A stretch of 64,000 nt of DNA from Gammaproteobacteria bacterium. Lineage in GTDB: Bacteria > Pseudomonadota > Gammaproteobacteria > Competibacterales > Competibacteraceae. Every line of letters starts with the position of its first letter. Position 1 is the stretch's first letter. The translations under genes and the position numbers were made by a program. Location: contig JADLEK010000076.1 in the NCBI GenBank assembly GCA_020846135.1, positions 1 to 64,000 on the forward strand, written 5' to 3'. Under the pieces are notes generated by a model, which had not been told where the DNA came from, ran no database searches, and was given only the letters and a program-made list of their open reading frames with translations. Shown here piece after piece: positions 22,840 through 41,865 of the stretch.

Positions 22840-22919
22840 CGCCGTCATTTTCACTAACTCCGAATATGCCCCGCATACCTTCTGTCAGAGTCCGATCTGA
22901 ATTAACCGAGGAGACAACC

Positions 22920-25900
22920 ATGACTCGCCAGTATTACCCGCTGACTCATCCTCAAAAACGCATCTGGTTTGGTGAGAAATTAACGCCCGGCTATGACTTC
23001 GCGACCATTGCCGGACGCATCACCATTCAGGGTCCGGCCAGTGCGACCTTGCTGAGTCAGGCGCTGAACCGGATTCTGGAAAAAAACGCCGGTTTACGCT
23101 TACGTTTTGTCGAGCTTGAGGGTGAAGGCGACGCCTTTACCAATACCCGGCAATATGTCGCCGATTACCAGCCAGTTAAAATTTTAATTCTTGACTTTTC
23201 CCATGCGTCTCTGGCTGAAGTGGATGACTGGTGCCTGGCGGAAAGCGCCAAACCTTTTCAGTTACTGGATGCCGATTTATATCAGTTCGCCATTCTGAAA
23301 ACCGCTGACAGCACCACGCTCTTTCTGAAATTTCATCATCTGATTGCCGATGGACTGAGTTGCTGGGGACCGTTTCTTGAACAACTGATCAGCTTTTACA
23401 CCAGTCTGATTAACAAGGTCGGCTTTGAAGACAAGCCTATCGTTTCCTATCTGAATTTTATTGAAGAAGAAGCGGCTTATCAGGAATCTGCGCTGTTCGC
23501 TGAAGATCGCCAGTTCTGGCTGGAAAAATTTGCCGATCCTCTGGAAGAACAACCCTTTTATCTGGATAAAGGCCCGGCCAGCGATCTTTCCGTACAATCC
23601 TTGACCTGTCATATCCCGGATGAGTTATGGCAAGCCTTAAAACAATTCAGTCGCGAGAATAAAACCCCGCCCTTCCGCCTGTTATTAACCGGGTTGTATC
23701 TCTATTTCGCCCGCATCGGTCAACACTATGATCAGGTGCTGGATCTGGCTCATCACAATCGCAACCAGAAAGCGGATTTACAGACCATCGGCATGTTTGT
23801 CAGTACTGTGCCACTGCGCCTGACGCTGGATCCCGAAACCTCGTTCCTGGACGCACTGCGCATTGTCAGTCAGGAACTGGAAACGGTGCTGAAAGGCCCG
23901 CAACGCTTCCCCTATAACCTGCTGGTCGAGGCGTTGCGCACCCGGCACGGAACCGGCCTGAACAGCGCCTGTTCGATTTCCCAGGTTCGCCTGCCCAGCC
24001 TGCCCGGCATGGACTTTCGGCATTATCAGAACACCTCCGCCACCGAGCCATTGAGCCTGTTTATCTATCCCAATGGCGATTTCGGCTTTCTGTTTCAACG
24101 GGCCTGTTTCAGCGCCGCCGATATCGAGGCGCTGTTTAACCGGCTGTTGACGCTGTTGCAAGATGCGCTGACCCAGCCGGAGCGGCCGCTCTGGCAACTG
24201 AATCTGCTGCCGGCGGTGGAGCAACAACAGCTTTTGCAGGACTTCAACGCGACGGCACTGCCGGTTCCCACCGACCGCACCTTCCCGGAACTGTTCGCCG
24301 AGCAAGTCGCCCGGACTCCAGACCGGCTGGCGCTGGTCTATCGGGATGAGCGTTATACCTATCAGCAACTCGACGCCAAAACCAACGCGCTGGCGCGGGT
24401 GCTGCGGGATCGCGGGGTTCAGCCCGACGCTATTGTGCCGATCCTGCTGCATCGGTCGGCGGAAATGCTGATTGCCGCCTTGGCGATCATGAAGGCGGGC
24501 GGCGCGTATTTGCCGGTTGACGCTGATTATCCCCAGCCGCGCATTGATTTCATGCTGGCCGACAGCGGCGCGACGCTGTTGGTGTCCCAGATCGAATTGC
24601 GCGAGAAAGCCGGCGCATTTACCGGCCTCTGGCTGGATATTCACGACCAGGCCCTCTATGCCGGCGGCGATTTGCCCCTGTGGACCGGCAGCCGCCCGGA
24701 GCGTCTGGCCTACGTCATCTATACCTCCGGCTCCACCGGCCAGCCCAAGGGCGTCCTGATCGAGCAGCGCAATCTGGTCAACGTGTGCTTCAGTGAAAAC
24801 CGGGACAACGCGCTGACCGCCGAAGACGCCTTCGCCAATTTTGCCAGCTTCAGCTTCGATACCTCGGTCACTTGCCTGTTTCCGCCGTTGCTGGTAGGCG
24901 CGGCAGTGCATATCGCGCCGGAAGAATTGCGGCTGGCCCCGGAACTGCTCAGCGCCTGGTTTGAAGAGCAGGGCATCACCCTCTGCGACTTTCCAACCCA
25001 GTTCGGTGAGCAATTCATGCAGTTGACCCGGAACCGGTCGCTGCGCCTGCTGATCGTGGGCGGCGACCAGTTGAAAGGGGTCACTCCCCAGTCCTACACG
25101 CTGGTCAATGAATACGGTCCGACTGAATGCACGGTCGTCACGACCCGTTTTCAGGTTGACCCGACCGATGTCGCCAACATCCCGATTGGCCGGCCCGTCG
25201 CGAACACCCAAGCGTATGTGGTCGATGCCCACGGCCAGTTGCAACCGATTGGCGTCCCCGGCGAATTGTGGCTGGGCGGGGCGCAAGTGGCGCGCGGCTA
25301 CTGGAATCGCCCGGAATTGACGGCTGAGAAGTTTATTGCCGATCCCTTCGCCTCCCCTCTCCCCGTGGGAGAGGGGCCGGGGGCGAGGTCGTCCCGCGTC
25401 TACCGCACTGGCGACATCGTGCGCTGGCGGGCGGATGGGAATCTGGAGTTCATTGGCCGGCGCGATTTTCAGATCAAGATTCGCGGCTTCCGGGTGGAAC
25501 TGGGCGATATTGAAGCCGCCTTGCGCCAGCATCCGGAGGTGGCCGATGCGGCGGTGATCAGCGGTCAAAATGCCGGCGGCACCGCGTTCATTGCCGCTTA
25601 TGCGGTGTTGCGCGATAGCCAAGGCGCGACCGATCAGGACGATTTGCGCCGCTTCCTGGCGGAGCGCTTGCCCGATTACATGGTCCCGGCCCGCCTTGGC
25701 CTGGTCCCACACCTCCCGATGACCACTCACGGCAAACTGGATCGGCAGGCGCTACTGGCGACCCTGCCGCCGGAAACCACCGTGGACCGGATCACGCCAC
25801 GCAATGACCGGGAGCAAATCCTGGCGGACATCTGGCAGGAAGTTCTCAGGCTGGAGGAAGTGGGCGTCACTGAAAACTTCTTCCATCTGGGCGGCGACTC

Positions 25901-28900
25901 GATCATGAGCATCCAGATTCTGTCGCGGGCGCGCAGTCGGGGACTGGGGATCAAGGGAGCGCACTTTTTCGCTCATCCCACCATTGCCGGGCTGGCCGAA
26001 GTTGCCGAAACCCTGGCTCCGGCGAGCAGCGACCATCCGGCTGAGGGTCTGGCTCAGTTGTTGCCGATTCAGCGCTGGTTCTTCGCCCTGGCTTCGCCGG
26101 AACCGCATTACTTCAATCAGTCCTTTTGCCTGAAACCCCGGCAACCGCTGACGGCGGCGTTCCTTGAGCAGGCGCTGGAGTGCGTGGGCCGTCATCACGA
26201 CGCGCTGCGGCTACGCTTTCAACCCTTGGCGGACGGGGCTTGGGAGCAGCGCTACGCCGCCCTCGATACCCCGATCTTCCGGTTTACCGAAGTCGATTTG
26301 CGCCCGGTTGCCGAGTCCGAGCGCACCGCCCGACAAGCCCGCCTCCTTGATCAATTACAACACGGATTTGATCTGCAACACGGACCGCTGGCCGCTGCAA
26401 TCCTGGCTCATGGCTGGACGGCGGGCGAACAGCGTCTGCTGATCGCCGCGCATCACTTGGTGGTGGATGTGGTCTCCTGGCGGATTCTGCTGGAAGACCT
26501 GGAAAGCGCTTATTCGGCGCTTGAACGGGGTCAGGCGCCGGCGCTGCCGCCTCGGACCGCCGCCTATGCCGAATGGGGCGCGGCTTTACAGCGCTATGCC
26601 CAAAGTCCGGCTTTAGCCGAAATTCAACCGTACTGGACGCGGATCAGCGAGAACCCGCCGCCCTTAAAGCGGGATCGCGACGCGCCGTTGCCGGTCCTGC
26701 GCGACACCGCAACGCTGACCTTGCATCTGCCGATGGGGCAAACCGCGCCCTTGCTGGAAAAACCCTTTGGCCTGTACCGCGCCCGCGCCAACGATGTGCT
26801 GCTGACCGCGCTGACCCTGGCGATCTTCCGCTGGAGCGGCGCCCGCGAGTGGCGGCTCGACCTGGAGGGGCATGGCCGCGAGGAAGAGATCGGCCAACTC
26901 GACGTGTCCCGCACCGTCGGCTGGTTCACCAGCCTGTTCCCGGTACGGCTGCGCTTGCCCGAACACTTCACTGCCGATCCAGCCCCGACTGATCTGGTCC
27001 GGGCGCTGCTGACGATCAAGGAAACGCTGCGTGGCATTCCCGGCAATGGCATCAGTTACGGCGTCCTGCGCTACCTAGGTGCGGGCATCGTCCACAGCCC
27101 CGACCCGGAGGTCAGTTTCAATTACCTGGGCAGTCTGGCCGGCGACCCACGCGCCTTTCTCGCGTTCAGCGATGAAGCCAGTGGTGAGCCGGTCGCGCCG
27201 GATACCCCGCTGGCGCATCTGCTGGAAATTGACGGCTGGGAGTCAGGGGGCGAACTGACCTTTCTGCTTCGCTACAGCCTGAAGCATTTCGACCCGGCGA
27301 CGATCCAGGCGCTGGCCGCCGCTTTCCAGTCCAGTCTGGAACACTTGTCGGCGCTGTTCGCTCCCGCCGTCACCCGCGCCTTCTCGCCTGCGGACTTCCC
27401 TCATACCGGCCTCAGCCAGTCGCAACTCGACCAACTCGCTGCTACCGGGGACATCGAGGACATTTACCGGTTGACGCCCCTGCAGGAAGGGATTTTGTTC
27501 CATACCTGCCTGCATCCCGAAGCGGGTGAATACCTGACCCAGACCCATTGGCGCTTCCTCGATCCAGTGGATTTGCCGGCGCTGCGCCAGGCGTGGACCG
27601 CGACGATGCGCCATCACCCGGTGTTTCGCACCGCTTTTGCCTGGGAAGATCTGCCCGCTCCGGTTCAGATCGTGTACGCCACCGTTGATTTTGAATGGGT
27701 GGAACTGGACTGGCGGGAGATTCCCGAAGATCAGTTCCCCGCTCAATTTCAGACCCTCCTCGACGACGATCGCCGCCGGGGCTTTGATCTGCGGCGACCG
27801 GGACTGACCCGGGTGATCCTGATCCGGCGGCCCGAAGGCGACCGGCTGGTCTGGACCGATCACCACATTCTGACCGACGGCTGGTGTCTGCCCCTGCTGC
27901 TTGGCGAGCTGAATGAACGCACTGTGGCGCTGCGTGAACACCGCGCTCCCCGCCTGGAATCCGCGCCACCCTTTGCGCGAATGATCGACTGGCTGTTCCA
28001 GCAGGATCGCAGCGAAGCCGAGCAGTTCTGGCGACAACAGGTCGGCGATCTGGAAGCGCCCTCCCGGCTGGGCATCGAGAAAGCCGGCGTCAACCTGGCG
28101 GATCGGACCCTGGCGGCGCAGATGCAGGAACGCGAGCAGCGCTTATCGGTCGCCCTGACCGCCCGCTGCACCGAATTTGCCCGCCAGATGGGTTGCACGA
28201 TCAACACGCTGCTGCAAACCGCCTGGGCGATGAGTCTGGCGGTGAGCAGCGGCCAAGATGATCTCACCTTTGGCATGGTGTCTTCGGGCCGCCCCGGAGA
28301 GTTGCCGGGGGTGGAAAAAATCATCGGCCTGTTTATCAGCAGCGCGCCGATGCGGATTCGCCTGGATGACCCCAGGCCGGTCCGTGAGGCGATTCAGGCG
28401 ATTGCCCAGACTGGCCGCGAGGTCAACCGGCTCAGTTTCATTGGTCTGGAGCAGATTCGCGCCCTGAGCAGGGTTCGCCCACCGGAGCCGCTGTTTCATA
28501 GCATTTTCGCGTTTGAAAATTATCCGGTCACCGAATACTGCGACCGCTCCGACGGGCTGCGACTGGGCGACATCGCCTCGCTGGAACGGGCCGATATGCC
28601 GCTGGCGCTGGTGATTTTCCCCGGCGAAGGCATCACGGTGCGGGCCGCGTTCAACGACCGTCTGATCGAAGCGGTGGGAATTGAACAGTTGCTGGAGCTG
28701 TATCCACAGGCCATTGAGGGCCTGCTGAACCACCCGGAGCGTTCACTCAGCGCCTTGGTGGATGAACTGGCGCAGGCAGCGTATCCGGATCGGCGGCGCG
28801 GCCCGCTGGCTTTACTGTCCGCCGAGGAACAGCAACGAATTCTGGTGGATTTCAACGCCAATAGCCTGCCCGTACCGACTGAACGCACCTTCCCAGACCT

Positions 28901-31900
28901 GTTCGCCGAACAGGTCGCGAAAACCCCGGATCGGCTGGCGCTGGCCTACCAGGAGGATCGCTATACCTATCAGCAACTCGACGCCAAAACCAATGCCCTG
29001 GCGCGAGTGCTGCGGGATCAGGGTGTTCAACCTGACGCTATCGTGCCGATCATGCTCCACCGGTCGGCGGAAATACTGATCGCCGCGCTGGCGATCATGA
29101 AAGCGGGCGGGGCCTATTTGCCGGTTGATCCAGACTACCCGCAGACCCGCATTGATTTCATGCTGGCCGACAGCGGCGCAACCCTGCTGCTGTCGGAAAC
29201 CGCGTTGCGCGAGAAGGCCGGCGCATTCACCGGCGCGTGGCTGGATCTGCGTGACCCGGCGCTGTATGCCGGTCCTGGAACGCCGCTCAAACCGCGCAGT
29301 CGCCCGGAGCATCTGGCCTATGTGATTTATACCTCCGGCTCTACCGGCCAGCCCAAGGGCGTCCTCATCGAACAGCGCAATCTGGTCAACATGTGCTTCG
29401 TCGAAAACCGGGAAAATGCGCTCACGGCTGAGGACGCCTTTGCGATCTACGCCAGTTTCGGTTTCGACTCCTCGGTGATTGGCCTGTTTTCACCGTTGCT
29501 GGGCGGCGCGGCGGTCCATATCGTTCCTGAAGAACTGCGGCTGGCGCCCGAAGCCCTCAGCGCCTGGTTTGAAGAACACCACGTCACCTTGACCATCCTG
29601 CCCACCCAGTTCGGTGAGCAGTTCATGCAACTGACCCGGAACCAGTCGTTGCGTATGTTGATCATGGGTGGCGAGAAGCTGAAGCTGGTCACGCCGCAGT
29701 CGTACCGGGTGATGAATGAATACGGTCCGACGGAATGTACGGTGGTGGCGACCCGTTTTCAGGTTGACCCGACCGATGTCGCCAACATCCCGATTGGCCG
29801 ACCGCTGGCGAACACGCAAGCGTATGTGGTTAATCCACAGGGTCAATTACAGCCGATCGGCGTCCCCGGCGAACTGTGGCTGGGCGGGGCGCAGGTGGCG
29901 CGGGGCTATTGGAATCGGCCTGAACTGACTGCCGAAAAGTTCATAGCTAATCCCTTTGACTCGCCTCGCCCGGAGGGAGATGGGTCGGGGGCGAGGGCGT
30001 CTTGCGTCTATCGCACCGGCGACATCGTGCGCTGGCTGCCGGATGGCAATCTGGAATTCATTGGCCGGCGCGATTTTCAGATCAAGATTCGCGGCTTCCG
30101 GGTGGAGTTGGGCGAAATCGATCAGGCCCTGATCCAGCATCCCGCTGTCCACGATGCCATCGTCATCGCCCGCGAAGACCCCAGCGGCGGGCATTATCTA
30201 TGCGGCTACTACGTCAGCGCCCCGCCAGTAGAGCCTGCGGAAATCAAGGCGTTCCTGGGCTGCGACCTGCCCGCTTACATGATCCCCGCCTTTCTGATGC
30301 CGCTACCCGCCTTGCCGGTCAATACTCATGGCAAAGTGGATCGCAAGGCGTTACCCGACCCGCATCAGGGCGTGGAACGACCCTATCTGGCCCCGCGCAA
30401 CGAGACCGAAGAACAGATCGCCGCGATTTGGCAGGACCTCCTGCATCCTGGACGCAGTCTGAGCCTGGATGATGATTTCTTCGCCTTGGGTGGCAACTCG
30501 CTCAAGGTCATGGCGCTGGCGGCGCGGCTGGAGAAAGCCTTCGGGGTCAAACTGGCTCTGGCGGATCTGTTCAATCGGCCGATTTTGCAGGATTTGGCGG
30601 CGGACATGACGCAGCGCGCCCGGCGGCAGCGCTATACGCCGATTGCGCCGTTGCCGGAGCGCGACTATTACCCGACTTCGGCGGTGCAGAAACGGATGTA
30701 TGTGCTGCAAAGCCTGCCAGGGGTTGGCTCGACCTACAACATTCCCCAGACCTTGCTGCTGGAAGGCCCGCTGGATAGCGCCCGCTTGGCGGAAACCCTG
30801 GATCGGCTGGTGGAGCGCCATGAAATCCTGCGCACCCGGTTCACCTTGATCAACGGCGACATCGTCCAGCAGGCGCAGCTGCAACTGCGCTACAAAAAGC
30901 TGTTCAAGGAAGTCCCGGAAGCCGATTTGGCGGAAGCGCTCAATGAATTTTGCCAGCCCTTTGATCTGAGCGAAGCGCCGCTGTTCCGCATGGGGCTGTT
31001 CAAACTCGCGCCGGAGCGCCATCTGCTGATCATCGACATGCACCACAGCATCAGCGATGGCGCTTCCTCGCTGATTCTGTTCGACGAGTTGTTCACCCTG
31101 TACGAAGGCGGCGCGTTGCCGCCGATGCCGATCCAGTACCGGGATTTTGCCGCCTGGCAAAATCAGTTGCTGGATTCCCCGGTCATGCAGACCCATGAAG
31201 CGTACTGGTTGACGACGCTGGCTGGTGAATTGCCGGTGCTGCAATTACCCACGGATCGCCCCCGCCCGGCCCACCAGCAGTTTTCCGGGGCCAGCATCGA
31301 GTTCGCGCTGGACGAGGCGCTGGTGGCGCAACTGACTGGGATCGCGCAGCGCACTGGCGGCACCCTGTTTATGATGATGCTGGCCGCCTATCAGGTTTTA
31401 TTGAGCAAATATGCCGGGCAGGAAGACCTTATCATCGGTACGGTCGCCTCCGGGCGAACCCATCCCGATACGGAAAACCTGATCGGCATGTTTGTCACTA
31501 CGTTGCCGATTCGGAGTTTCCCCCAGGCCGACAAACCGTTCGTCCAGTACCTGCATGAGGTCCGTCAGGCGGTGTTGGACGCGCTGGAGCATCAGGATTA
31601 TCCGTTTGACCGGATCGTTGAAAACCTGCATCTGCCCCGCGATCCCAGCCGCAACCCGCTGTTCACCGCCTCGTTTGGCCTGCTGGCGGCGGAATCGATT
31701 CAGCAAGCCGCCCAGCTCACCATCCGCCCCTATCCAATCGCCTCGACGGCTTCCCATTTTGATTTAAGCCTGGATATTGGGGTACAAACCGACCGTATCG
31801 ACGGTTATTTCAACTACGCAACCCACCTGTTTGACGCCGCCACCATTGAGCGCATGGCCGGCCATTTCGTTCGGCTGTTGCAGCAGATCGCGGCGGATCC

Positions 31901-34900
31901 GGAGCTGCGACTGGGCGAGATTGAGCTGATGTCCGCCGAGGAACGGCAGCGCCTTCTGGTTGATTTCAACGCTACCGGGTGGCCGGTTCCCACGGATCGC
32001 ACCTTCCCGGAATTGTTTGCCGAGCAGGCTGCAAAAACGCCGGATCGTCCGGCGTTGGTCTATCGGGACCAGCGTTATACCTATCAGCAACTCGACGCCA
32101 AAACCAATGCCTTGGCGCGGGTATTGCGGGATCGCGGGGTTCGGCCCGACGCCATTGTGCCGATTCTGCTGCAGCGTTCCGCCGAAATGCTGATCGCGGC
32201 GCTGGCGATTATGAAAGCGGGCGGCGCGTATTTGCCGGTCGATCCGGAGTACCCACAGGCTCGCATTGACTTCATGCTGGCCGACAGCGGCGCAACGCTG
32301 TTGCTGTCCGAAACTGCGTTGCGCGCGAAGGTCGGCGCGTTTACCGGCGCATGGCTGGATGTCCACGATCCGGCGCTGGATGCCGGACCCGAGACGCCGC
32401 TGGAGCCGCTGGCCGGTCCTGAACATCTGGCCTACGTCATCTACACCTCCGGCTCCACCGGTCAGCCCAAGGGTGTGCTGATCGAGCAACGCAACCTGGT
32501 CAACCTCTGCATCGGGGAAAACGCCGCCAACGCCACGACTGCCGAGGACGCGGTCGCTAATCACTACAGTTTCAGCTTCGATTCGGCGGTTAGTTGCCTG
32601 TTTCCGCCCCTGCTGGTCGGTGCTGCGGTCCATCTGATTCCCGACGAACTGCGCTTGGCTCCGGACGCCCTCAGCGCCTATTTTGAAGCGCAGGGCATCA
32701 CCATCACCGACTTCCCGACCCAGTTTGGCGAGCAGTTCATGCAACTGACCCGCAACCAGTCGCTGCGGCTGTTGCTGATGGGTGGCGAGCGGCTGAAAAC
32801 CGCCGCGCTCCAGCCTTACACGCTCATCAACGCCTACGGTCCGACGGAATGCACGGTCACCGCGACCCGATTCATCATTGACCGGGCGGATTACGCCAAC
32901 ATCCCGATTGGCCGGCCCGTCGCGAACACTCAGGCGTATGTGGTCAATGCGCGTGGTCAGTTGCAGCCGATTGGCGTTCCGGGGGAACTGTGGCTGGGTG
33001 GGGCGCAAGTAGCGCGGGGCTATTGGAATCGGCCCGAATTGACGGCGGAGAAATTCATCGACAATCCGTTTGCAGCCGCCAATACCCCCCACCCCACCCC
33101 TCCCCCCGCGGGGGTGAGGGCGTCCCGCGTCTACCGCACCGGCGACATCGTGCGCTGGAGGCCTGATGGCACACTGGAGTTCTCTGCCCGGCAGGATCAT
33201 CAAGTCAAGATTCGCGGCTTCCGAGTGGAACTGGGCGAGATCGAACAGGTGATCCTCAGTTTGCCCGCCGTCCGGGAAACCGTGGTCGTGGCGCTGGATG
33301 ACGACCACGGCAATCAATATCTGGCCGGGTATCTGGTCGCCGAACCGCCAACGCTGGAACTGGATCTGCCTGCGTTGCGCCAAACCCTGCAAAAAACCCT
33401 GCCGGACTATCTGATCCCGGCGCATTTCGTCCAGTTGGAACACTTGCCCCTGACCGTGAATGGCAAGGTTGATACCCGCGCCTTGCCCAAACCGAGCGCC
33501 ACCACCGAGGAGATCGTCCGGGGCTATATCGCCCCGCGTAATGAGCTGGAACAGACCCTGGCGACGGTTTGGGCTGCGGTGCTGGGGGTCAAAAACGTCG
33601 GGATTCACGACAACTTCTTTGCCCTCGGCGGCAACTCCCTGCAAGCGATTACCCTCATTGCCCGGCTGCAAAAGCACTTCGTAGTCACCATCAACGATCT
33701 CTACCAATGGCAGACCATCGCTGAACTGGCGCCGAAGATCAAACCCCGGCAGGACTATCTGAACCTGTTCCTGAATGAACTGAAGGAGAATCCCGAAGCC
33801 TGGGCCGATCCGCTGGCGGCGAATCCGGGGTTCCAGGCGCAGCTTGGAAAAGCGCAACAGCAGTACCGGCAAACCTGGGCGCGCTATGAACATCTGGATT
33901 TGACGGCCCGGCGTCGCTATCAAAACTTGTTACTGACCGGCGCGACCGGGTTCTTGGGCGCGTATCTGCTCCATGAACTGCTGCGGCAACCGGAGACCAG
34001 CGGGCTGGTCGTGATCGTTCGGGGCGCGGATCAGGCTGATGCGGCGGCGCGGTTGCGCAGCAAGTTCGCGTACTACTTCGGCGCCGCCGCCTGGGATGAT
34101 TTGCAGGTTCCCGACCGGATTACCGTGCTGTGCGGCGACCTGAGCCAGCCGCAATTTGGCCTCAGCGCCGACGAGTATCAGCACTGGACGCAACAGATTG
34201 ACGGGATTCTTAATTCCGCCGCCAATGTCCGCCACTACGGCCATTATCAGGAGTTCTATCAGGCCAACGTGCAGTCGGTCATCAACCTGATCGACTTCGC
34301 CCAGACCGGGGTTCCCAAGGACCTGCACCATATTTCCACGCTGTCGGTGGCGTCAGGCGCATTCCCCGACCGTGATTATGTGGTGTTCACCGAAGATAAC
34401 GCCGATGAAGGCCAGGTCAGCGGCAATCATTACCTCACCACCAAACTGGCGGCGGAAAAGCTGCTGATCGACCGTCGGGCGGATGGGCTGAACGCCAGCA
34501 TTTACCGGGTCGGCAACATCGTGTTCAGCGAAAAAACCGGGCGCTATCAGGAGAACATCGAGGACAACGCCTTCTTCAGTCAGATGCAATCCTTCGTCAA
34601 TCTCGGCGTCACCCCGGCGATGAAAGACGACATCGATTTCACCTATGTGGACAGTCTGGCCCAGGCGATTCTGCGGCTGATGTACGCTACAGCGTTGCGC
34701 AATGAAACCTGGCACCTGGCCAATCCCCGGCGGTTAAGACTGTCCGAGGTGTTGAACGACCCCGGTCTGGGTCTGGCGGTTAGCACCGTACCGTTTGCCG
34801 ATTTCGTCGATACTCTGCTCAACCACCTCGAACAATGGGGTTTTAGCCACCACATTGAAAATATCCTCACCCACATGGGCTGGCTGGGCGGCGAGCTGGA

Positions 34901-35456
34901 ACAACAAACCCTGGTTACCCCGCTGGCGGATCGCACCGAGTTCCTGCTGGAGCGGCTGGGCTTCAACTGGCCGGCGCTGACCCTGCCCAATCTGCTGCCG
35001 ATGCTCCACCAAGCGCTGGCCGAGCGGATCGCTTTCATGGCGCAAACCCCACTGTTTGCCCAGTTAACCCCCGAACAACAGGCCATCCTGGCCGGTCAGG
35101 CCACCATGACCGCCTTCCGCAATGAAAAACCGCTGGTCTGGGAAGGCGATCCGTCCGATGCGCTCTACCTGGTGATGAACGGCTATCTGGAAATTTCCAG
35201 CACCTCGACCAGCGGCTGGACCGGCACTCTCGGCGTCATGGGCGAGAAGGACTTCATTGGCGAGGAAAGTCTGTTCCCCGGCAAGCGCGCAATCCTGACT
35301 GCCGAAGCGCTGTTGGGCGATGTAGTGGCGCTGCAATTCCCGGGGGCGATACTCCGGGCGATGATTCAGCAGCATCCGCAACTGGCGCTGAATCTGATCG
35401 AGGCGCTGGAAACCCGGTTGCAGCGGCTGGCCAAGCTGGTGATCAGCATCAGTTGA
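22920..35456 (+). CDS. Three-module NRPS with terminal reductase and cNMP-binding-like domain
   Basis: The 4178-residue synthetase starts at the ATG at 22920 with a GAGGAG site; an open frame upstream overlaps DUF2721. Approximate domain starts in residues: C 1 (HHLIADG near 139), A 441, T 975 (GGDS), E 1040 (HHLVVDVVSW, EGHGRE), C 1510 (HHILTDG), A 1980, T 2505 (GGNS), C 2580 (HHSISDG), A 3016, T 3550 (GGNS), thioester reductase 3665 (TGATGFLG; Y-x3-K in YLTTK near 3838), cNMP-binding-like 4040-4178 (EGDPSDALYLVMNGYLEI, GEESLF). Hand-aligned pocket codes are DTTDIGEVVK, DSIIIGEVVK and DSSDLGAVTK; none points firmly to a substrate. The predicted product is a tripeptide with a D-residue at position 1, possibly N-acylated, released as an aldehyde or alcohol. 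No phosphopantetheinyl transferase or exporter lies nearby. Confidence 0.95.
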   Translation: MTRQYYPLTHPQKRIWFGEKLTPGYDFATIAGRITIQGPASATLLSQALNRILEKNAGLRLRFVELEGEGDAFTNTRQYVADYQPVKILILDFSHASLAEVDDWCLAESAKPFQLLDADLYQFAILKTADSTTLFLKFHHLIADGLSCWGPFLEQLISFYTSLINKVGFEDKPIVSYLNFIEEEAAYQESALFAEDRQFWLEKFADPLEEQPFYLDKGPASDLSVQSLTCHIPDELWQALKQFSRENKTPPFRLLLTGLYLYFARIGQHYDQVLDLAHHNRNQKADLQTIGMFVSTVPLRLTLDPETSFLDALRIVSQELETVLKGPQRFPYNLLVEALRTRHGTGLNSACSISQVRLPSLPGMDFRHYQNTSATEPLSLFIYPNGDFGFLFQRACFSAADIEALFNRLLTLLQDALTQPERPLWQLNLLPAVEQQQLLQDFNATALPVPTDRTFPELFAEQVARTPDRLALVYRDERYTYQQLDAKTNALARVLRDRGVQPDAIVPILLHRSAEMLIAALAIMKAGGAYLPVDADYPQPRIDFMLADSGATLLVSQIELREKAGAFTGLWLDIHDQALYAGGDLPLWTGSRPERLAYVIYTSGSTGQPKGVLIEQRNLVNVCFSENRDNALTAEDAFANFASFSFDTSVTCLFPPLLVGAAVHIAPEELRLAPELLSAWFEEQGITLCDFPTQFGEQFMQLTRNRSLRLLIVGGDQLKGVTPQSYTLVNEYGPTECTVVTTRFQVDPTDVANIPIGRPVANTQAYVVDAHGQLQPIGVPGELWLGGAQVARGYWNRPELTAEKFIADPFASPLPVGEGPGARSSRVYRTGDIVRWRADGNLEFIGRRDFQIKIRGFRVELGDIEAALRQHPEVADAAVISGQNAGGTAFIAAYAVLRDSQGATDQDDLRRFLAERLPDYMVPARLGLVPHLPMTTHGKLDRQALLATLPPETTVDRITPRNDREQILADIWQEVLRLEEVGVTENFFHLGGDSIMSIQILSRARSRGLGIKGAHFFAHPTIAGLAEVAETLAPASSDHPAEGLAQLLPIQRWFFALASPEPHYFNQSFCLKPRQPLTAAFLEQALECVGRHHDALRLRFQPLADGAWEQRYAALDTPIFRFTEVDLRPVAESERTARQARLLDQLQHGFDLQHGPLAAAILAHGWTAGEQRLLIAAHHLVVDVVSWRILLEDLESAYSALERGQAPALPPRTAAYAEWGAALQRYAQSPALAEIQPYWTRISENPPPLKRDRDAPLPVLRDTATLTLHLPMGQTAPLLEKPFGLYRARANDVLLTALTLAIFRWSGAREWRLDLEGHGREEEIGQLDVSRTVGWFTSLFPVRLRLPEHFTADPAPTDLVRALLTIKETLRGIPGNGISYGVLRYLGAGIVHSPDPEVSFNYLGSLAGDPRAFLAFSDEASGEPVAPDTPLAHLLEIDGWESGGELTFLLRYSLKHFDPATIQALAAAFQSSLEHLSALFAPAVTRAFSPADFPHTGLSQSQLDQLAATGDIEDIYRLTPLQEGILFHTCLHPEAGEYLTQTHWRFLDPVDLPALRQAWTATMRHHPVFRTAFAWEDLPAPVQIVYATVDFEWVELDWREIPEDQFPAQFQTLLDDDRRRGFDLRRPGLTRVILIRRPEGDRLVWTDHHILTDGWCLPLLLGELNERTVALREHRAPRLESAPPFARMIDWLFQQDRSEAEQFWRQQVGDLEAPSRLGIEKAGVNLADRTLAAQMQEREQRLSVALTARCTEFARQMGCTINTLLQTAWAMSLAVSSGQDDLTFGMVSSGRPGELPGVEKIIGLFISSAPMRIRLDDPRPVREAIQAIAQTGREVNRLSFIGLEQIRALSRVRPPEPLFHSIFAFENYPVTEYCDRSDGLRLGDIASLERADMPLALVIFPGEGITVRAAFNDRLIEAVGIEQLLELYPQAIEGLLNHPERSLSALVDELAQAAYPDRRRGPLALLSAEEQQRILVDFNANSLPVPTERTFPDLFAEQVAKTPDRLALAYQEDRYTYQQLDAKTNALARVLRDQGVQPDAIVPIMLHRSAEILIAALAIMKAGGAYLPVDPDYPQTRIDFMLADSGATLLLSETALREKAGAFTGAWLDLRDPALYAGPGTPLKPRSRPEHLAYVIYTSGSTGQPKGVLIEQRNLVNMCFVENRENALTAEDAFAIYASFGFDSSVIGLFSPLLGGAAVHIVPEELRLAPEALSAWFEEHHVTLTILPTQFGEQFMQLTRNQSLRMLIMGGEKLKLVTPQSYRVMNEYGPTECTVVATRFQVDPTDVANIPIGRPLANTQAYVVNPQGQLQPIGVPGELWLGGAQVARGYWNRPELTAEKFIANPFDSPRPEGDGSGARASCVYRTGDIVRWLPDGNLEFIGRRDFQIKIRGFRVELGEIDQALIQHPAVHDAIVIAREDPSGGHYLCGYYVSAPPVEPAEIKAFLGCDLPAYMIPAFLMPLPALPVNTHGKVDRKALPDPHQGVERPYLAPRNETEEQIAAIWQDLLHPGRSLSLDDDFFALGGNSLKVMALAARLEKAFGVKLALADLFNRPILQDLAADMTQRARRQRYTPIAPLPERDYYPTSAVQKRMYVLQSLPGVGSTYNIPQTLLLEGPLDSARLAETLDRLVERHEILRTRFTLINGDIVQQAQLQLRYKKLFKEVPEADLAEALNEFCQPFDLSEAPLFRMGLFKLAPERHLLIIDMHHSISDGASSLILFDELFTLYEGGALPPMPIQYRDFAAWQNQLLDSPVMQTHEAYWLTTLAGELPVLQLPTDRPRPAHQQFSGASIEFALDEALVAQLTGIAQRTGGTLFMMMLAAYQVLLSKYAGQEDLIIGTVASGRTHPDTENLIGMFVTTLPIRSFPQADKPFVQYLHEVRQAVLDALEHQDYPFDRIVENLHLPRDPSRNPLFTASFGLLAAESIQQAAQLTIRPYPIASTASHFDLSLDIGVQTDRIDGYFNYATHLFDAATIERMAGHFVRLLQQIAADPELRLGEIELMSAEERQRLLVDFNATGWPVPTDRTFPELFAEQAAKTPDRPALVYRDQRYTYQQLDAKTNALARVLRDRGVRPDAIVPILLQRSAEMLIAALAIMKAGGAYLPVDPEYPQARIDFMLADSGATLLLSETALRAKVGAFTGAWLDVHDPALDAGPETPLEPLAGPEHLAYVIYTSGSTGQPKGVLIEQRNLVNLCIGENAANATTAEDAVANHYSFSFDSAVSCLFPPLLVGAAVHLIPDELRLAPDALSAYFEAQGITITDFPTQFGEQFMQLTRNQSLRLLLMGGERLKTAALQPYTLINAYGPTECTVTATRFIIDRADYANIPIGRPVANTQAYVVNARGQLQPIGVPGELWLGGAQVARGYWNRPELTAEKFIDNPFAAANTPHPTPPPAGVRASRVYRTGDIVRWRPDGTLEFSARQDHQVKIRGFRVELGEIEQVILSLPAVRETVVVALDDDHGNQYLAGYLVAEPPTLELDLPALRQTLQKTLPDYLIPAHFVQLEHLPLTVNGKVDTRALPKPSATTEEIVRGYIAPRNELEQTLATVWAAVLGVKNVGIHDNFFALGGNSLQAITLIARLQKHFVVTINDLYQWQTIAELAPKIKPRQDYLNLFLNELKENPEAWADPLAANPGFQAQLGKAQQQYRQTWARYEHLDLTARRRYQNLLLTGATGFLGAYLLHELLRQPETSGLVVIVRGADQADAAARLRSKFAYYFGAAAWDDLQVPDRITVLCGDLSQPQFGLSADEYQHWTQQIDGILNSAANVRHYGHYQEFYQANVQSVINLIDFAQTGVPKDLHHISTLSVASGAFPDRDYVVFTEDNADEGQVSGNHYLTTKLAAEKLLIDRRADGLNASIYRVGNIVFSEKTGRYQENIEDNAFFSQMQSFVNLGVTPAMKDDIDFTYVDSLAQAILRLMYATALRNETWHLANPRRLRLSEVLNDPGLGLAVSTVPFADFVDTLLNHLEQWGFSHHIENILTHMGWLGGELEQQTLVTPLADRTEFLLERLGFNWPALTLPNLLPMLHQALAERIAFMAQTPLFAQLTPEQQAILAGQATMTAFRNEKPLVWEGDPSDALYLVMNGYLEISSTSTSGWTGTLGVMGEKDFIGEESLFPGKRAILTAEALLGDVVALQFPGAILRAMIQQHPQLALNLIEALETRLQRLAKLVISIS
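25351..25393 (+). repeat. In-frame palindromic repeat in adenylation domain 1
   Basis: A near-perfect hairpin (CCCCTCTCCC / GGGAGAGGGG) followed by CCGGGGGCGAGG lies inside the NRPS frame. It encodes the loop SPLPVGEGPGARSS just before the VYRTGDIVRW motif. The DNA looks like a dispersed repeat of the CCCTCTCCC...GGGAGAGGG type and not like ordinary A-domain sequence. It lengthens the loop without breaking the frame. Confidence 0.75.
29961..30001 (+). repeat. In-frame repeat at the same loop of adenylation domain 2
   Basis: This is a diverged version of the element in A domain 1: CGCCCGGAGGGAGATGGG, then TCGGGGGCGAGGGCG. It encodes SPRPEGDGSGARAS at the equivalent loop before VYRTGDIVRW. The 3' half keeps the GGGGGCGAGG core, while the hairpin arm is degenerate. 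Confidence 0.65.
33084..33121 (+). repeat. In-frame repeat at the same loop of adenylation domain 3
   Basis: A C-rich run followed by TCCCCCCGCGGGGGTGAGGG encodes TPHPTPPPAGVRAS at the same loop before VYRTGDIVRW. The sequence is clearly different from those in A domains 1 and 2 but has the same hairpin-plus-GAGGGCG design. Confidence 0.65.
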
Positions 35457-35463
35457 CCGGAAC

Positions 35464-38400
35464 TTGAGAGAAAACCCGCGACGCGCTGTTGACGATCCGC
35501 CCGTACTCGACTCGGACGTTCTCGATCAATTCATCACGGTCTGGAGCGAGGCGACGGGGCCGGAGCGGGCCAATTATCAGTTGTTTCTGACCGGATTCGC
35601 CGTCCTGGCCGTACCGCCGCCCGAACCTGCCAGCGATGATCCGGCCCGGAATGCCTACGTTTTCGAGCGGCGGGTCGAGATTCGCCATCCCGACGGCAAT
35701 GTCACCAAGGGCTATATCGATCTGTACCTCCAGCATTTTGTGCTGGAGGTCAAGCAGACTGGCCAGGCGCTGGAGACGCCGGGTTGGAGTCAGGCGATGC
35801 TGGCGGCGCATCATCAGGCTGACCGCTATGTGCGCAATCTGCCGCCCGAGGAGGGGCGTCCGCCGTTCCTCATTTTGACCGACGTGGGCCGGGTGCTGGA
35901 GCTGTATGCCGAGTTCAGCGGCTCCGGGGGGATTTATACGCCGTTCCCGGACCCCGGCCATCACCGGATTCGCCTGGAGGATTTGCGCGATCCAGCGATT
36001 CAGCAGCGGCTGCGGCAGGTGTGGCGGGACCCGCTAAGTTTGGATCCCAGTCGTTATGCGGCGCGAGTGACGCGGGAAATCAGCGCGGCTTTGGCGAATC
36101 TGGCGCGGTCGCTGGAAGCGCAAGGGTATGCCGTTGAACGGGTGGCCGGATTTCTGATGCAGTGCCTGTTCACGATGTTCGCCGAGGATGTGGAGTTGTT
36201 GTCAGCAGACGGCTTTACCCGGTTACTGGAGTGGTTGCAGGCGCAACCGGCGTCGTTTGTCGATGCGGTGTCGGCGCTGTGGCGGAATATGGACGCCGGG
36301 GGTTACGACGGACAGTTGATGGTGAAGGTCAAGCGCTTCAACGGTGGGTTGTTCCACACGATTGACCCGCTGCCGCTGACCGCCGGGCAGATTGGGCAGT
36401 TGCTCGAAGCGGCCCGGCAGGATTGGCGGTTCGTGGAACCGGCGATTTTCGGGACCTTGCTGGAACGCGCGATCAATCCCCGCGAACGGCACAAACTTGG
36501 CGCATATTACACGCCCCGCGCTTATGTGGAACGACTGGTGATGCCGACGGTGATTGAACCGCTGCGCCGGGAATGGAGTTTGGTACAGGTTGCGGCGGCG
36601 GCCTGGGTACGGCAGAACCAGTTGGATGGGGCGCTGGCCGAAGTGCAGACCTTTCATCATCGGTTGTGCAGTCTGCGGATTCTCGACCCGGCCTGTGGCA
36701 GCGGCAATTTCCTCTATGTGACGCTGGAGCATTTGAAACGGCTGGAGGGGGAAGTGCTGAACCTGCTGTGCGAACTGAGTAGCGGGCAGGAGGCGCTGGA
36801 TACAAGCGGGCTGACGGTCGATCCGCATCAGTTTCTCGGTCTGGAGCGCAATCCCCGGGCGGCGGCGATTGCCGAAATGGTGCTGTGGATTGGCTATCTG
36901 CAATGGCATTACCGGATTCATCGGCGGCTGGATTTGCCAGAGCCGATCCTGCGCGATTGCCACAACATCGAAGGTCGGGACGCCCTGATCGCGTTTGATG
37001 GGTGTGAACCGGAATTGGACGATCACGGCCAGCCGGTGACGCGCCGGGATGGCGTGAGTTTCAAACCCAGTCTGATCACCGGCGAACCGCTCCCGGATGA
37101 GAACCGGCGCATTCCCCAGGAACGCTCTGTCAATCCCCGCCCGGCGGTGTGGCCTGCAGCGGATGCGGATTATGTGGTGGGCAATCCACCGTTTATTGGC
37201 GCTTCGGCGATGCGTCGGGCGCTGGGCGATGGCTATGTGGATGCGGTGCGGGCGGCGTGGCCGGCGGTTCCGGAATCGGCGGATTTTGTGATGTACTGGT
37301 GGCAGATCGCCGCGACCGCAGTCCGGCAGGGTGAATTGCAACAGTTCGGTTTCATCACCACCAATTCGATCCGGCAGGCCTTCAATCGGCGGGTGATGGA
37401 AGCGCATTTAGCGCCCCGCAATGGGGAGTCATTATCTCTGGTCTTCGCCATTCCCGATCATCCCTGGGTCGATGCCGGCGATGGCGCGGCGGTGCGGATC
37501 GCCATGACCGTGGCGGAAGCCGGGGAACGGGAGGGCGTGTTGCAGACGGTGCGCCGGGAAATGGCCTGTGAGGAAGACGCCCGCGCTGTCGAGTTGACCA
37601 CCCGCACCGGCCGACTCCATGCCGATTTGACCATCGGGGCGAATGTGGCAGGGTCTAAGATTCTGTTAGCCAATGCAAATTTGAGTAATCGTGGCGTCAG
37701 CTTGTTTGGGTCCGGGTTTATCGTTTCTCCAGCGGAGGCCATCACGCTGGGATTAGGCGCGATACCCGGTCTTGAACAACACATCCGTCACTACCGCAAT
37801 GGCCGTGATCTCACCCAAAACTCACGCGGCGCGATGGTGATTGATCTTCTTGGTCTCACCCTCGCCGAGGTACGGCAACATTTCCCGGAGGTCTGCCAAT
37901 GGGTACTGGAGCGGGTTAAACCGGAGCGCGATCAAAATAACCGGGAAAGCCGTCGCCGCAATTGGTGGTTGTTTGGCGAAACCAATCCGAAGTTGCGTCA
38001 CCAGTTAGCGAGTCTCTCCCGCTATATCGCCACCGTAGAAACCACGAAACATCGTATTTTCCAGTTCCTCGATGCCGACATTCTGCCGGATAACAAGCTC
38101 ATTAATATCGCCTTGAATGAAGTCTTTTACCTCGGTGTTTTATCAAGCCGCGTTCATTTGGTCTGGGCTACAGCTAATTCAGCATCTCCAAGCGCTTATA
38201 AAGGCGATGTGGTTTATGTAAAAACCCGCTGCTTTGAAACCTTCCCTTTCCCGGATGCCCCCGCCGAATCCGCTGCCTGTATCCGCGACTTGGCCGAACA
38301 ACTCGATGCCCACCGCAAGCGTCAGCAGGCGCAATCTCCCGGCTTGACCCTGACCGGGATGTACAACGTCCTGGAGCAACTGCGCGCCGGCCAATCCCTG

Positions 38401-38988
38401 AACGCTAAAGAGCAGGCCATTCACCAGCAGGGTCTGATCTCCCTGCTGCAGGAACTGCACGACGATCTGGATCGCGCGGTATTCGCCGCCTACGGCTGGG
38501 CGGATCTCGCCGATGCCCTGGTCGGGCAACCCGGCGCGACGACACCCCTTCCCGATAAACCCGCCGCCCAGCAGGAAGCCGAGGAAGAGCTGCTGCGCCG
38601 ACTGTTCGATCTCAACACCCAACGCGCCCGCGAAGAAGCGCAGGGGCACATCCGCTGGCTGCGTCCCGCCTGGCAACAGCCGACCGCGACGACTGAACAA
38701 CGCTTGGCGCAGCAGGAACCACTCACCGATCTGGAAACCGACGTTGCCCCGGAACCTGCCGCCAAACAGCCCTGGCCGAAAGCCATGCGCGACCAGATTG
38801 AGGCGGTCCGCGAACGACTAGGTGTCGGTCCACGAACCGTTGATCAACTCGCCGCCCGGTTCCAGCGCAAACCGGTCAAAGCGGTACAGATGGTGCTGGA
38901 TACCCTGGAGGCCATGAATCTGGCCCAGCGGATCGTTGACCATTGGCAGTTGAACCACATTCAAATTTGCTCCCGGATGATGAGTTGA
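35464..38988 (+). CDS. Single-chain MmeI-type (Type IIL/IIG) restriction-modification enzyme
   Basis: The 1174-residue protein combines endonuclease and adenine-N6 methyltransferase. The N-terminal PD-(D/E)XK nuclease has D near residue 85 in YIDLYLQ and EVK near 95 in FVLEVKQ. A helical spacer leads to LGAYYTPRAYV. The methyltransferase has motif I LDPACGSGNFL near 408 and motif IV VGNPPF near 573. A target-recognition region (about 37640-38240) is visibly more AT-rich than its flanks. The last ~60 residues look like a winged helix (TVDQLAARFQ). MmeI itself is 919 residues, so this one is longer. No ATG is available; TTG at 35464 is the only start that keeps the nuclease, seven bases after the NRPS stop. 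No separate methylase or specificity gene is present. Confidence 0.87.
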   Translation: MRENPRRAVDDPPVLDSDVLDQFITVWSEATGPERANYQLFLTGFAVLAVPPPEPASDDPARNAYVFERRVEIRHPDGNVTKGYIDLYLQHFVLEVKQTGQALETPGWSQAMLAAHHQADRYVRNLPPEEGRPPFLILTDVGRVLELYAEFSGSGGIYTPFPDPGHHRIRLEDLRDPAIQQRLRQVWRDPLSLDPSRYAARVTREISAALANLARSLEAQGYAVERVAGFLMQCLFTMFAEDVELLSADGFTRLLEWLQAQPASFVDAVSALWRNMDAGGYDGQLMVKVKRFNGGLFHTIDPLPLTAGQIGQLLEAARQDWRFVEPAIFGTLLERAINPRERHKLGAYYTPRAYVERLVMPTVIEPLRREWSLVQVAAAAWVRQNQLDGALAEVQTFHHRLCSLRILDPACGSGNFLYVTLEHLKRLEGEVLNLLCELSSGQEALDTSGLTVDPHQFLGLERNPRAAAIAEMVLWIGYLQWHYRIHRRLDLPEPILRDCHNIEGRDALIAFDGCEPELDDHGQPVTRRDGVSFKPSLITGEPLPDENRRIPQERSVNPRPAVWPAADADYVVGNPPFIGASAMRRALGDGYVDAVRAAWPAVPESADFVMYWWQIAATAVRQGELQQFGFITTNSIRQAFNRRVMEAHLAPRNGESLSLVFAIPDHPWVDAGDGAAVRIAMTVAEAGEREGVLQTVRREMACEEDARAVELTTRTGRLHADLTIGANVAGSKILLANANLSNRGVSLFGSGFIVSPAEAITLGLGAIPGLEQHIRHYRNGRDLTQNSRGAMVIDLLGLTLAEVRQHFPEVCQWVLERVKPERDQNNRESRRRNWWLFGETNPKLRHQLASLSRYIATVETTKHRIFQFLDADILPDNKLINIALNEVFYLGVLSSRVHLVWATANSASPSAYKGDVVYVKTRCFETFPFPDAPAESAACIRDLAEQLDAHRKRQQAQSPGLTLTGMYNVLEQLRAGQSLNAKEQAIHQQGLISLLQELHDDLDRAVFAAYGWADLADALVGQPGATTPLPDKPAAQQEAEEELLRRLFDLNTQRAREEAQGHIRWLRPAWQQPTATTEQRLAQQEPLTDLETDVAPEPAAKQPWPKAMRDQIEAVRERLGVGPRTVDQLAARFQRKPVKAVQMVLDTLEAMNLAQRIVDHWQLNHIQICSRMMS

Positions 38989-38999
38989 AAAAGGACCTC

Positions 39000-39980
39000 A
39001 TGGCGCTACGCATCCTGTTATTAGGCAAACGCGGCAGCCTGGTGCTGTGGCTCGAAAATCTGCAATGCGCCTGTGTTCAACTGGGCCATTGTGCGCAGGC
39101 GTTCGCCGTTAACGGCGATACCCTCGCCTCGCGGTTGCGGGTCAAATGGCAGGGCCGCTCTTCAATGAATGCGGGCTGGATGCTGGCCCGATTTGAGCGA
39201 ACCTTGCGCCAGTTTCAGCCGGATTTAGTGATCGTTGCGGGAGTCTTCGGAGTTCCGCTGGATTATTACCGGTTATTACACGCTTGGCCGCGCCGGCCAG
39301 TGATCGCCGGATTGATTGGCGACCGGTTCTCACCAGACAGTCGGGAGCGGGCTAATCATTGCGACCGGCTGTATTTTACCGATACCCGGTTTTTCGCTGC
39401 GGCGGAAGCTGCTGGTTTTACCGTTCCCAGTCATTATTTACCGCTGGCGGTAGACCCGGAGCTGTTTACGCCCGGTCATCAACCGCGCCATTCCGAGCTA
39501 CTGTTTGTCGCCAGCCGCACCGAGTTTCGGGAAAGCATCGTGCGGGGTTTGACCACGCCAGCCCGGATCATTGGCACCGATTGGAGCGAGTTGGCGCAGG
39601 ATCGGTTTCATTCCGTGCAAAACCGTAAAATCAGCCGCACCGCGTTGATCCAGCTTTATCAACGTTATGGCGCGGTGCTGAATGTGCGTAATGAGGCGAA
39701 TGTGGACGATGGGCTGAATCAACGCAGTTTTGAACCACTGGCCTGTGGCGCAGTGGTCTTGAATGATGATCTAGCTGACCTGCCGCGCTGTTTCGAGCCG
39801 GGTCGGGAAATTCTGGTTTATCGGGATATTAACGAATTGAATGGGTTGATTGAGCGACTGCAACGAGAGCCGGCTTTTGGGGCAAAAATTGTGGAACAAG
39901 GGCGACAGCGGATTCTGGCTGAGCATACCTATCAACATCGGGTCCGATTTATTCTTAACGACTTGGGATTGCAGCCATGA
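39000..39980 (+). CDS. CgeB-like family glycosyltransferase
   Basis: The 326-residue protein has the two-domain GT-B look of CgeB/DUF3880-type glycosyltransferases. The N-terminal half has LLGKRGSLVLWLEN and PDLVIVAGVFGVPLDYY. The C-terminal half has the sugar-nucleotide-binding block RSFEPLACGAVVLND, then EPGREILVYRD and the final HTYQHRVRFIL helix. ATG at 39000 has an AAAAAGGA ribosome site 11 bases after the restriction-enzyme stop. It overlaps the phosphoribosyltransferase gene by ATGA, so it is tied to the four-gene Ter-type module and may glycosylate that pathway's product (inference). Acceptor and donor are unknown. Confidence 0.78.
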   Translation: MALRILLLGKRGSLVLWLENLQCACVQLGHCAQAFAVNGDTLASRLRVKWQGRSSMNAGWMLARFERTLRQFQPDLVIVAGVFGVPLDYYRLLHAWPRRPVIAGLIGDRFSPDSRERANHCDRLYFTDTRFFAAAEAAGFTVPSHYLPLAVDPELFTPGHQPRHSELLFVASRTEFRESIVRGLTTPARIIGTDWSELAQDRFHSVQNRKISRTALIQLYQRYGAVLNVRNEANVDDGLNQRSFEPLACGAVVLNDDLADLPRCFEPGREILVYRDINELNGLIERLQREPAFGAKIVEQGRQRILAEHTYQHRVRFILNDLGLQP

Positions 39981-41140
39981 CCGCGCCGGTATTGCGAACC
40001 GTGATTGCGCCGATTCAGGCTGGGCGGTTGATGATTACTCTTCAGCACGAGGAATTACCGCTTGAAGAGTGCCTGACTTTTGCTACCCGCCAGAATCCCC
40101 GCCGCCTGTACCTTTTCGTCAGCAAGGTGCTGGGCAAACATTGGCCAGTGCGTCCCAGCGTTATGCATGATGTGCATCGCCGACTTGCGGCTAAAATAGC
40201 TGATTTACCGGGACCATTATTAGTCATTGGTCTGGCAGAAACCGCGACGGCATTGGGGCGCGGCGTTGCTGAAGAAGCGGCATTATTAACCGGGCGCGAT
40301 GATATTCTGTATGTGCAAACCACCCGCTACCGGTTAAATCGCCCCCTGGCGTTCGGCTTTGATGAATCTCACAGCCACGCCCCGGAACATGCAGTTTATC
40401 GCCCAGATTCCGCGTTGCAACCGTTATTCAATGCAGCGCAGAGTCTGATTCTGGTTGATGATGAAATCTCCACAGGCCGCACCCTGGCTGAATTAGTCAA
40501 GGCTTATCTGGCGATCAATCCCAGCGTTGAGCAGATCGCATTCGCCTGCATAACGAACTGGTTAAATCCGGCGCATCGGGAAGCCTTGGCAAGGCAACTG
40601 GAGCGGTCATTATTATTTCCGGCGCTGATTGAAGGCGGTTTCCAGTTTGAACCCGATCCCACATTTCCACCACCGGTGCTGCCCCTGGTTGTCGCTGATT
40701 CCACCCGGAATCACGATCATCTGGTCGCTGATCCAGCGCGAACCGGATTAATAGCCGGGTCTGCGATAACTACCCATCTCCCCCTTTTTAAAAATGGGGG
40801 CGCGGGGGATTTCGCGCCGGTTAATCCGATCGCGGTGATTGGCACTGGGGAATATGCTTACACACCATTTCGCATTGCGCTGGCATTGGAAGAAGCCGGC
40901 CACGACGTGCTGTTTCAATCGACCACTCGTTCACCAATTCTGGTCGGCAATGCTATTGCCAACCGCCGGGAGTTTCTGGATAACTATGGCGACAGTATTC
41001 CTAATTATCTCTATAACTTGGATTCAAACCGGTCGCCGATGGTGATTTACGAACATTCAGCCATGCTGGCCAACCACTCGCTGGCTAATGACTTGAACGG
41101 GTTGGCTCTGCATGGAGAAGTATCATGCCGCGTATCGTAA
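39977..41140 (+). CDS. Phosphoribosyltransferase-TRSP domain protein (Ter-associated)
   Basis: The 387-residue protein has an N-terminal type-I phosphoribosyltransferase domain. The PRPP loop is LILVDDEISTGRT near residues 155-167, and the block LLVIGLAETATALG precedes it. A C-terminal TRSP domain (about 275-380) shows VIGTGEYAYTPFRIA, FQSTTRSPI and an NRSPMVIYEH-type ending. This pairing is known from tellurite-resistance (Ter) operons, where it is predicted to build a nucleoside-like metabolite from PRPP. The linker carries an in-frame repeat (40778-40816). It overlaps the glycosyltransferase by 4 bases and the HAD gene by 16. Confidence 0.86.
   Translation: MTAPVLRTVIAPIQAGRLMITLQHEELPLEECLTFATRQNPRRLYLFVSKVLGKHWPVRPSVMHDVHRRLAAKIADLPGPLLVIGLAETATALGRGVAEEAALLTGRDDILYVQTTRYRLNRPLAFGFDESHSHAPEHAVYRPDSALQPLFNAAQSLILVDDEISTGRTLAELVKAYLAINPSVEQIAFACITNWLNPAHREALARQLERSLLFPALIEGGFQFEPDPTFPPPVLPLVVADSTRNHDHLVADPARTGLIAGSAITTHLPLFKNGGAGDFAPVNPIAVIGTGEYAYTPFRIALALEEAGHDVLFQSTTRSPILVGNAIANRREFLDNYGDSIPNYLYNLDSNRSPMVIYEHSAMLANHSLANDLNGLALHGEVSCRVS
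40778..40816 (+). repeat. In-frame palindromic repeat inside the PRTase-TRSP gene
   Basis: A CCCCCTTTTT / AAAAATGGGGG hairpin is followed by CGCGGGGGATTTCGCG. It spans 13 codons (about LPLFKNGGAGDFA) in the linker between the phosphoribosyltransferase and TRSP domains. The composition is unlike the surrounding coding sequence and typical of a dispersed repeat. The reading frame is preserved. Confidence 0.7.
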
Positions 41141-41865
41141 TCTTTCTCGATCTGGACGACACTATTTTACAAACTGCGCCTAAATGTCCAACCGATCAGG
41201 CATTAACTCCAGCCGCATTTAATCACACGGGTGAGGTATTGTCGTTCATGACTCCCGCCCAACGGCGTTTACTGGAATTCTGGCGGGAACAGGCGACAGT
41301 CATTCCAGTGACCGGACGCACGGACAGCGCCTTAGACCGGGTGGCGATTAGCTTCACCTCCTGGCGGATTACCTATCATGGCGCGCTGATTCGCCAGCCT
41401 GACGGTACATTACCCGTCTGGTGGCATAACGAAATTCAGCCCTTATTAAATACAGCGCGGCCATTATTAAATGAATACGCCGCCTGGTTAAATGCCAATG
41501 CTGCGGCAGGCGGTTATCGAGTCAGCGATCATGCTGTTGAAGAGTGCCTGACCTATATTTCAGTTAAATCAGAAGATGATGGCGCTGCATTAACCCGATT
41601 ACAAACGCAATTACTTTCCACCGGATTGCCGCCGGAACTGGCGCTGCATTGCAATGGCAACAATCTGGCGCTGATGGTCAAAGGCGCGCAAAAACATGAT
41701 GCAGTGCGGCGAGTCACAGCGGAACTAAAGCAGGACGGGCCACTGGTCACGATTGGCGCTGGCGATAGTCTGACTGACCTTCCCTTCATGCAAATCTGTG
41801 ATTTCGCACTCGTGCCGCAAGCCAGTCAGATTCAGACCGAAACCTGGAGCCAATACACGCCATGA
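41125..41865 (+). CDS. HAD-superfamily phosphatase (Ter-associated module)
   Basis: The 246-residue protein starts MPRIVIFLDLDDTILQT. The DLDDT is HAD motif I with nucleophile and acid/base aspartates. Motif II is VTGRTDSAL, and the C-terminal motif IV GAGDSLTDLPFM supplies the Mg ligands. The long cap between 90 and 190 fits the HAD-IIB type (sucrose-phosphate phosphatase-like). In the Ter-linked module such a phosphatase is predicted to dephosphorylate the ribosylated intermediate. It overlaps both neighbours (16 bases upstream, ATGA downstream), showing tight coupling. Confidence 0.86.
   Translation: MPRIVIFLDLDDTILQTAPKCPTDQALTPAAFNHTGEVLSFMTPAQRRLLEFWREQATVIPVTGRTDSALDRVAISFTSWRITYHGALIRQPDGTLPVWWHNEIQPLLNTARPLLNEYAAWLNANAAAGGYRVSDHAVEECLTYISVKSEDDGAALTRLQTQLLSTGLPPELALHCNGNNLALMVKGAQKHDAVRRVTAELKQDGPLVTIGAGDSLTDLPFMQICDFALVPQASQIQTETWSQYTP

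Follow-up and report, generated by a model that had tools for sequence, protein, structure and literature searches.

The window, a 64,000-nucleotide stretch of DNA from an uncultured Competibacteraceae bacterium, holds the gene of a giant nonribosomal peptide synthetase (NRPS) in which a genuine sensor-type (cNMP) domain of the CRP/PKA fold, a kind that as a rule binds cAMP, is fused directly behind the terminal thioester reductase (TR). In our reading, this tail is a domain of the CRP fold that serves regulation or docking at the release step, with a ligand that is divergent or none, and we tentatively lean toward a regulatory module that would act on reductive release. The features of the gene are as follows.

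22920..35456, forward strand: NRPS gene, C-A-T-E-C-A-T-C-A-T-TR-cNMP; the open frame reaches upstream to 22662
22920..27350 (approximate limits), forward strand: module 1, with C (HHLIADG ~23334), A (24720), T (GGDS ~25890), and E (HHLVVDVVSW ~26451); from motifs and Pfam
27350..30640 (approximate limits), forward strand: module 2, with C (HHILTDG ~27861), A (29328), and T (GGNS ~30489); from motifs and Pfam
30660..33740, forward strand: module 3, with C (HHSISDG ~31041), A (32442), and T (GGNS ~33627); from motifs and Pfam
33933..34990, forward strand: terminal thioester reductase (NAD_binding_4 core 33933-34670; TGATGFLG 33936; YLTTK 34431)
35007..35453, forward strand: CRP/PKA-type (cNMP_binding) domain with a short N-terminal and a long C-terminal helix; from Pfam, AF2, Foldseek, and VIA-align
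35142..35225, forward strand: family signature EGDPSDALYLVMNGYLEISSTSTSGWTG (E-G...Y..M.G.LE.S..S..GW.G); columns invariant in all four NRPS tails
35253..35318, forward strand: phosphate-binding-cassette region FIGEESLFPGKRAILTAEALLG, degenerate; from alignment

A single open frame with zero stops runs from 22662 to 35456 on the forward strand, the TR/tail boundary included. Its likeliest start, judging from a GAGGAG just 5' of it, is the ATG at 22920, which with the stop at 35456 would give a protein of 4178 aa, the length on which the preliminary description had based its residue numbering. That description also named an independent frame or a stop ahead of the tail as the sign of a separate gene, and neither was found in 22662-35456. 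Moreover, a separate gene is unlikely because the internal ATG at 35037 is missing from two of the four members of the tailed set. With the frame continuous and this ATG not conserved, we ruled out a separate gene or a frame break, and likewise an assembly chimera, as the same TR-tail junction recurs in three further genomes from different assemblies.

Pfam matches along the whole protein comprise four condensation-type, three adenylation, and three carrier domains together with NAD_binding_4 (residues 3758-4003, numbered from 22662) and cNMP_binding; those of module 3 are Condensation (2667-3099) and AMP-binding (3119-3455). Motif reading gives three modules in the order C-A-T-E-C-A-T-C-A-T and then a reductase with TGATGFLG and YLTTK, where the second 'condensation' match is read as an epimerisation domain from its HHLVVDVVSW motif. 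Here, a carrier domain is followed by an NAD(P)-binding reductase carrying GxxGxxG and YxxxK, as is characteristic of a reductase-terminated NRPS, and the product predicted from the domain order is a tripeptide aldehyde or alcohol. In AusA (aureusimine) and MxcG (myxochelin), too, the C-A-T modules are followed by a terminal thioester reductase that depends on NAD(P), and the models of both match the window NRPS strongly, yet below their own cut-offs. In contrast to the window NRPS, which continues into the CRP-fold domain, the best-matching stretches of these models stop within the TR.

Several lines of evidence identify the tail. Pfam places cNMP_binding (PF00027) at residues 4152-4238, numbered from 22662 (nt 35115-35375), with an E-value of 5.1e-12 and 46.0 bits in the whole protein, and with 5.2e-14 and 52.4 bits in the tail alone, both scores being above the curated cut-off of 27.5. 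A sequence search of the PDB with the tail returned sensor domains of the CRP family, with 2pqq as the best match (E 3.4e-14), and an AlphaFold2 model of 35007-35453 from nine sequences (pLDDT 85.5, pTM 0.79) shows a CRP/PKA-type beta-roll with a cassette helix and, over residues 124-148 of 149, a long C-terminal helix like that of CRP. In Foldseek and VIA-align, CRP and GlxR came out on top: the best Foldseek match of this model was M. tuberculosis CRP (E 6e-12), and its superposition with GlxR (3r6s) in VIA-align gave a Z of 19.4 and a rmsd of 1.9 over 143 residues. The profile search and the structure prediction that the preliminary description proposed thus bear out its central claim of an NRPS with a cNMP-like domain after the terminal reductase. 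While the tail resembles the sensor half of CRP/FNR regulators in both fold and sequence (23-26% identity to MtbCRP and GlxR), these regulators also carry a DNA-binding helix-turn-helix, for which the whole window protein has no Pfam family match; the protein stops at the C-terminal helix. A joint model of the TR and tail (567 residues) is of low confidence (pLDDT 50).

The search for other reductase-cNMP NRPSs, also proposed earlier, turned up three more, all from Competibacteraceae, so that the TR-cNMP tail is found in four of the 39 genomes of this family (the window genome, G003, G028, and G020). Tail identity to the window is 84-85% for G003 and G028 and 29% for G020, the last being about 40% identical over reductase and tail together. 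Moreover, the G020 tail sits on a different NRPS, a two-module protein of 2610 aa with two adenylation domains. Among 40 genomes of the order, all four tailed members match a TR-tail profile at 567 of 567 positions, while five other reductases match it in the reductase core alone; the tail is therefore not general to the reductase-ended NRPSs of these bacteria and marks one reductase lineage. A single label change suffices for the four tailed TRs in a 25-row reductase tree, and the simplest reading, not a proven one, would be one fusion, as the branch toward an untailed Azospirillum reductase is unresolved in that tree. Partial samples of the class (369 genomes) and the phylum (398 genomes), one further class (48 genomes), plasmids, and IMG/VR yielded no further NRPS with a cNMP tail. 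A short-pattern contig scan, which can miss distant members, found only the three relatives and stand-alone rhizobial cNMP proteins. As for selection, dN/dS among the three close tails (0.08-0.14) is similar to that of their TR (0.09-0.11), and the tail is under purifying selection.

Untailed second reductases occur in the same order (L099/L140 in G003:C109, L139 in G020:C151, and L136-L138), some of them on other NRPSs. A further reductase frame (L087, G116:C61) ends in a stretch resembling, by eye, the C-terminal end of RlmJ, an rRNA methyltransferase, which could be a fusion, a recombination, or an assembly fault.

The phosphate-binding cassette of the window tail is GEESLFPGKRAILTA (GEESLFPGKR), in which Glu and Arg are 8 residues apart. 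As the spacing between the acidic residue and Arg is 9 in the other aligned cNMP domains that are complete (e.g., GEIAILCDVSRTA and GELAMLDGRGRSA), the phosphate-binding Arg comes one residue early in the window and is out of register. In G003, this Arg (CGC) is replaced by Cys (TGC), and the G020 cassette, GKEALLHQLPSPV (GKEALLHQLPS), has neither the ribose Glu nor the phosphate Arg. The ribose-binding Glu is kept in the window, G003, and G028, and is a Lys in G020. Across the four-tail alignment, the residues for ligand contact have degenerated, but the fold is retained, as are the C-terminal helix and the strand region with GW.G. To judge from these residues, a canonical cAMP/cGMP switch conserved across the tail family is unlikely, and the ligand, if any, would probably differ from a canonical cyclic nucleotide in at least part of the family. 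The preliminary description had suggested that the domain could tie peptide release to cAMP, cGMP, or a related signal; a regulatory link to release stays plausible, while cAMP or cGMP as the signal is not supported, the cassette residues not being conserved. Still, a ligand of some kind is possible, because modulation by cyclic nucleotides is reported even for some CNB domains that lack the Arg (PMC545951), and the regulatory subunits of trypanosomatid PKA, with altered cassettes, bind purine nucleosides rather than cAMP (PMC10959531). These subunits share with the tail the CNB fold and an altered phosphate cassette and so set a precedent for ligand change, though the residues altered are different (the invariant second Glu of the tail lies one position before the site that corresponds to their Glu311) and the host protein is unrelated to an NRPS.

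Were the tail a cAMP/cGMP sensor, binding in the canonical pocket would turn peptide release on or off, which appears improbable to us. The closest structural and sequence matches are indeed cAMP-binding CRPs, and the window and G028 each have the ribose Glu together with an Arg close by, but the spacing of the two is short by one, G003 has Cys for the Arg, and G020 is without either residue, both of which a canonical sensor would be expected to retain. With two class III nucleotidyl cyclases encoded in its genome, the host probably has cyclic nucleotides at hand, and the Arg-less domains cited above also count in favour of this explanation. (Two phosphopantetheinyl transferases are found in the host genome as well.) That the tail is a mere passenger, a captured Crp-family gene fragment functionless in the synthetase, would suit its rarity in the family, but we consider it very improbable, given its retention down to 29% identity on different NRPSs and its low dN/dS.

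The main rival to the regulatory reading is a ligand-free structural domain, which would either use its long C-terminal helix to dimerise the synthetase, in the manner of CRP, or dock a partner, for example a downstream tailoring or export protein. Purifying selection, the CRP-like helix in the model, and the retention of fold, helix, and GW.G region beside degenerate ligand residues all fit such a domain, which we nonetheless regard as rather unlikely, as neighbouring genes are mostly not conserved and there is accordingly no obvious docking partner. We favour the regulatory role because the tail always adjoins the TR, tracks the TR lineage on two assembly lines, and has been kept by selection. 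Here, the tail would be a CRP-fold regulatory module that, as a covalent part of the synthetase, modulates the NADPH-dependent release of the tripeptide aldehyde or alcohol, through a conformational change or the recruitment of a partner, in answer to a ligand; across the family, this ligand is unlikely to be a canonical cyclic nucleotide throughout. The more specific proposal, that the assembly line contains a CRP-fold domain which senses a small molecule and allosterically gates reductive release, is a possibility we advance with some doubt; if true, a metabolite or second messenger would directly control natural-product output post-translationally.

In the 25-row reductase tree, the tailed TRs have as their neighbour a lineage with links to PAS-histidine kinases; a regulatory role of the tail is thereby plausible, by analogy only. 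In other gammaproteobacteria, this sister TR lineage lies directly before a PAS-PAS-histidine kinase and is fused to it in G133. Signalling proteins thus recur at this end of such NRPSs, downstream of or fused to the TR (G133, G351, and Cysteiniphilum), which is an analogy and not proof. Here, the pairs carry PAS and kinase domains, mostly as separate genes, whereas the window tail is of the CRP fold and fused; the linkage, being that of a sister lineage with another domain type, can back regulation only by likeness. The fused example is a 4514-aa open frame on the reverse strand of G133:C6 (L103:2543-16087), with a formyltransferase-like start, NRPS modules, a terminal reductase, PAS-PAS-HATPase, and a weak receiver match, while the kinase is a separate, next gene in G351:C63 and G133:C37. 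A single-module reductase-ended NRPS of the same lineage is found on a Cysteiniphilum plasmid (NZ_CP103984.1; L130:2740-8521), with a PAS-domain gene directly downstream. Its C-terminal extension is hydrophobic and is not a cNMP domain.

NRPS control is known mostly at the level of transcription. A conserved sensor-type domain on the release unit would amount to a direct, testable case in which the assembly line itself is under allosteric control, and at about 570 aa the TR-cNMP pair is compact enough for expression and assay. Even without a ligand, this C-terminal domain type has no earlier description for the release end of an NRPS, within the literature searched. No description of an NRPS with a fused cNMP domain was found in that literature, in which subscription journals were thinly covered, and the TR-cNMP fusion thus seems undescribed there; the earlier remark that no established role is known for such a domain at an NRPS end agrees with this, as neither the collections nor the literature searched had a precedent. 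Co-mentions of NRPS and cNMP domains in PMC4558948 and PMC8346489 concern other proteins. Among natural-product and compartment systems, cyclic-nucleotide-type domains are also known in or beside geosmin gene clusters (PMC4558948), and family 2B encapsulins have an HK97 shell with an inserted PF00027 domain of proposed regulatory role (PMC8346489). The family 2B encapsulin profile matches the window protein weakly (E 5e-7), though its host protein is an HK97 shell and the window cNMP domain sits on an NRPS; the Pfam search over its full length gave no HK97-fold shell domain.

Directly behind the NRPS, an MmeI-type restriction-modification gene lies at 35464-38988 of the window. A homologue with 76% identity (L042:1-2037) lies upstream of the NRPS in G020, a few genes away, the two NRPSs themselves not being close. 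Further on, the gene run at 38943-43903 carries Glyco_trans_1_2, PRTase_2/TRSP, StiP/PELOTA_1, and C-C_Bond_Lyase domains and resembles tellurite-resistance-associated stress clusters.
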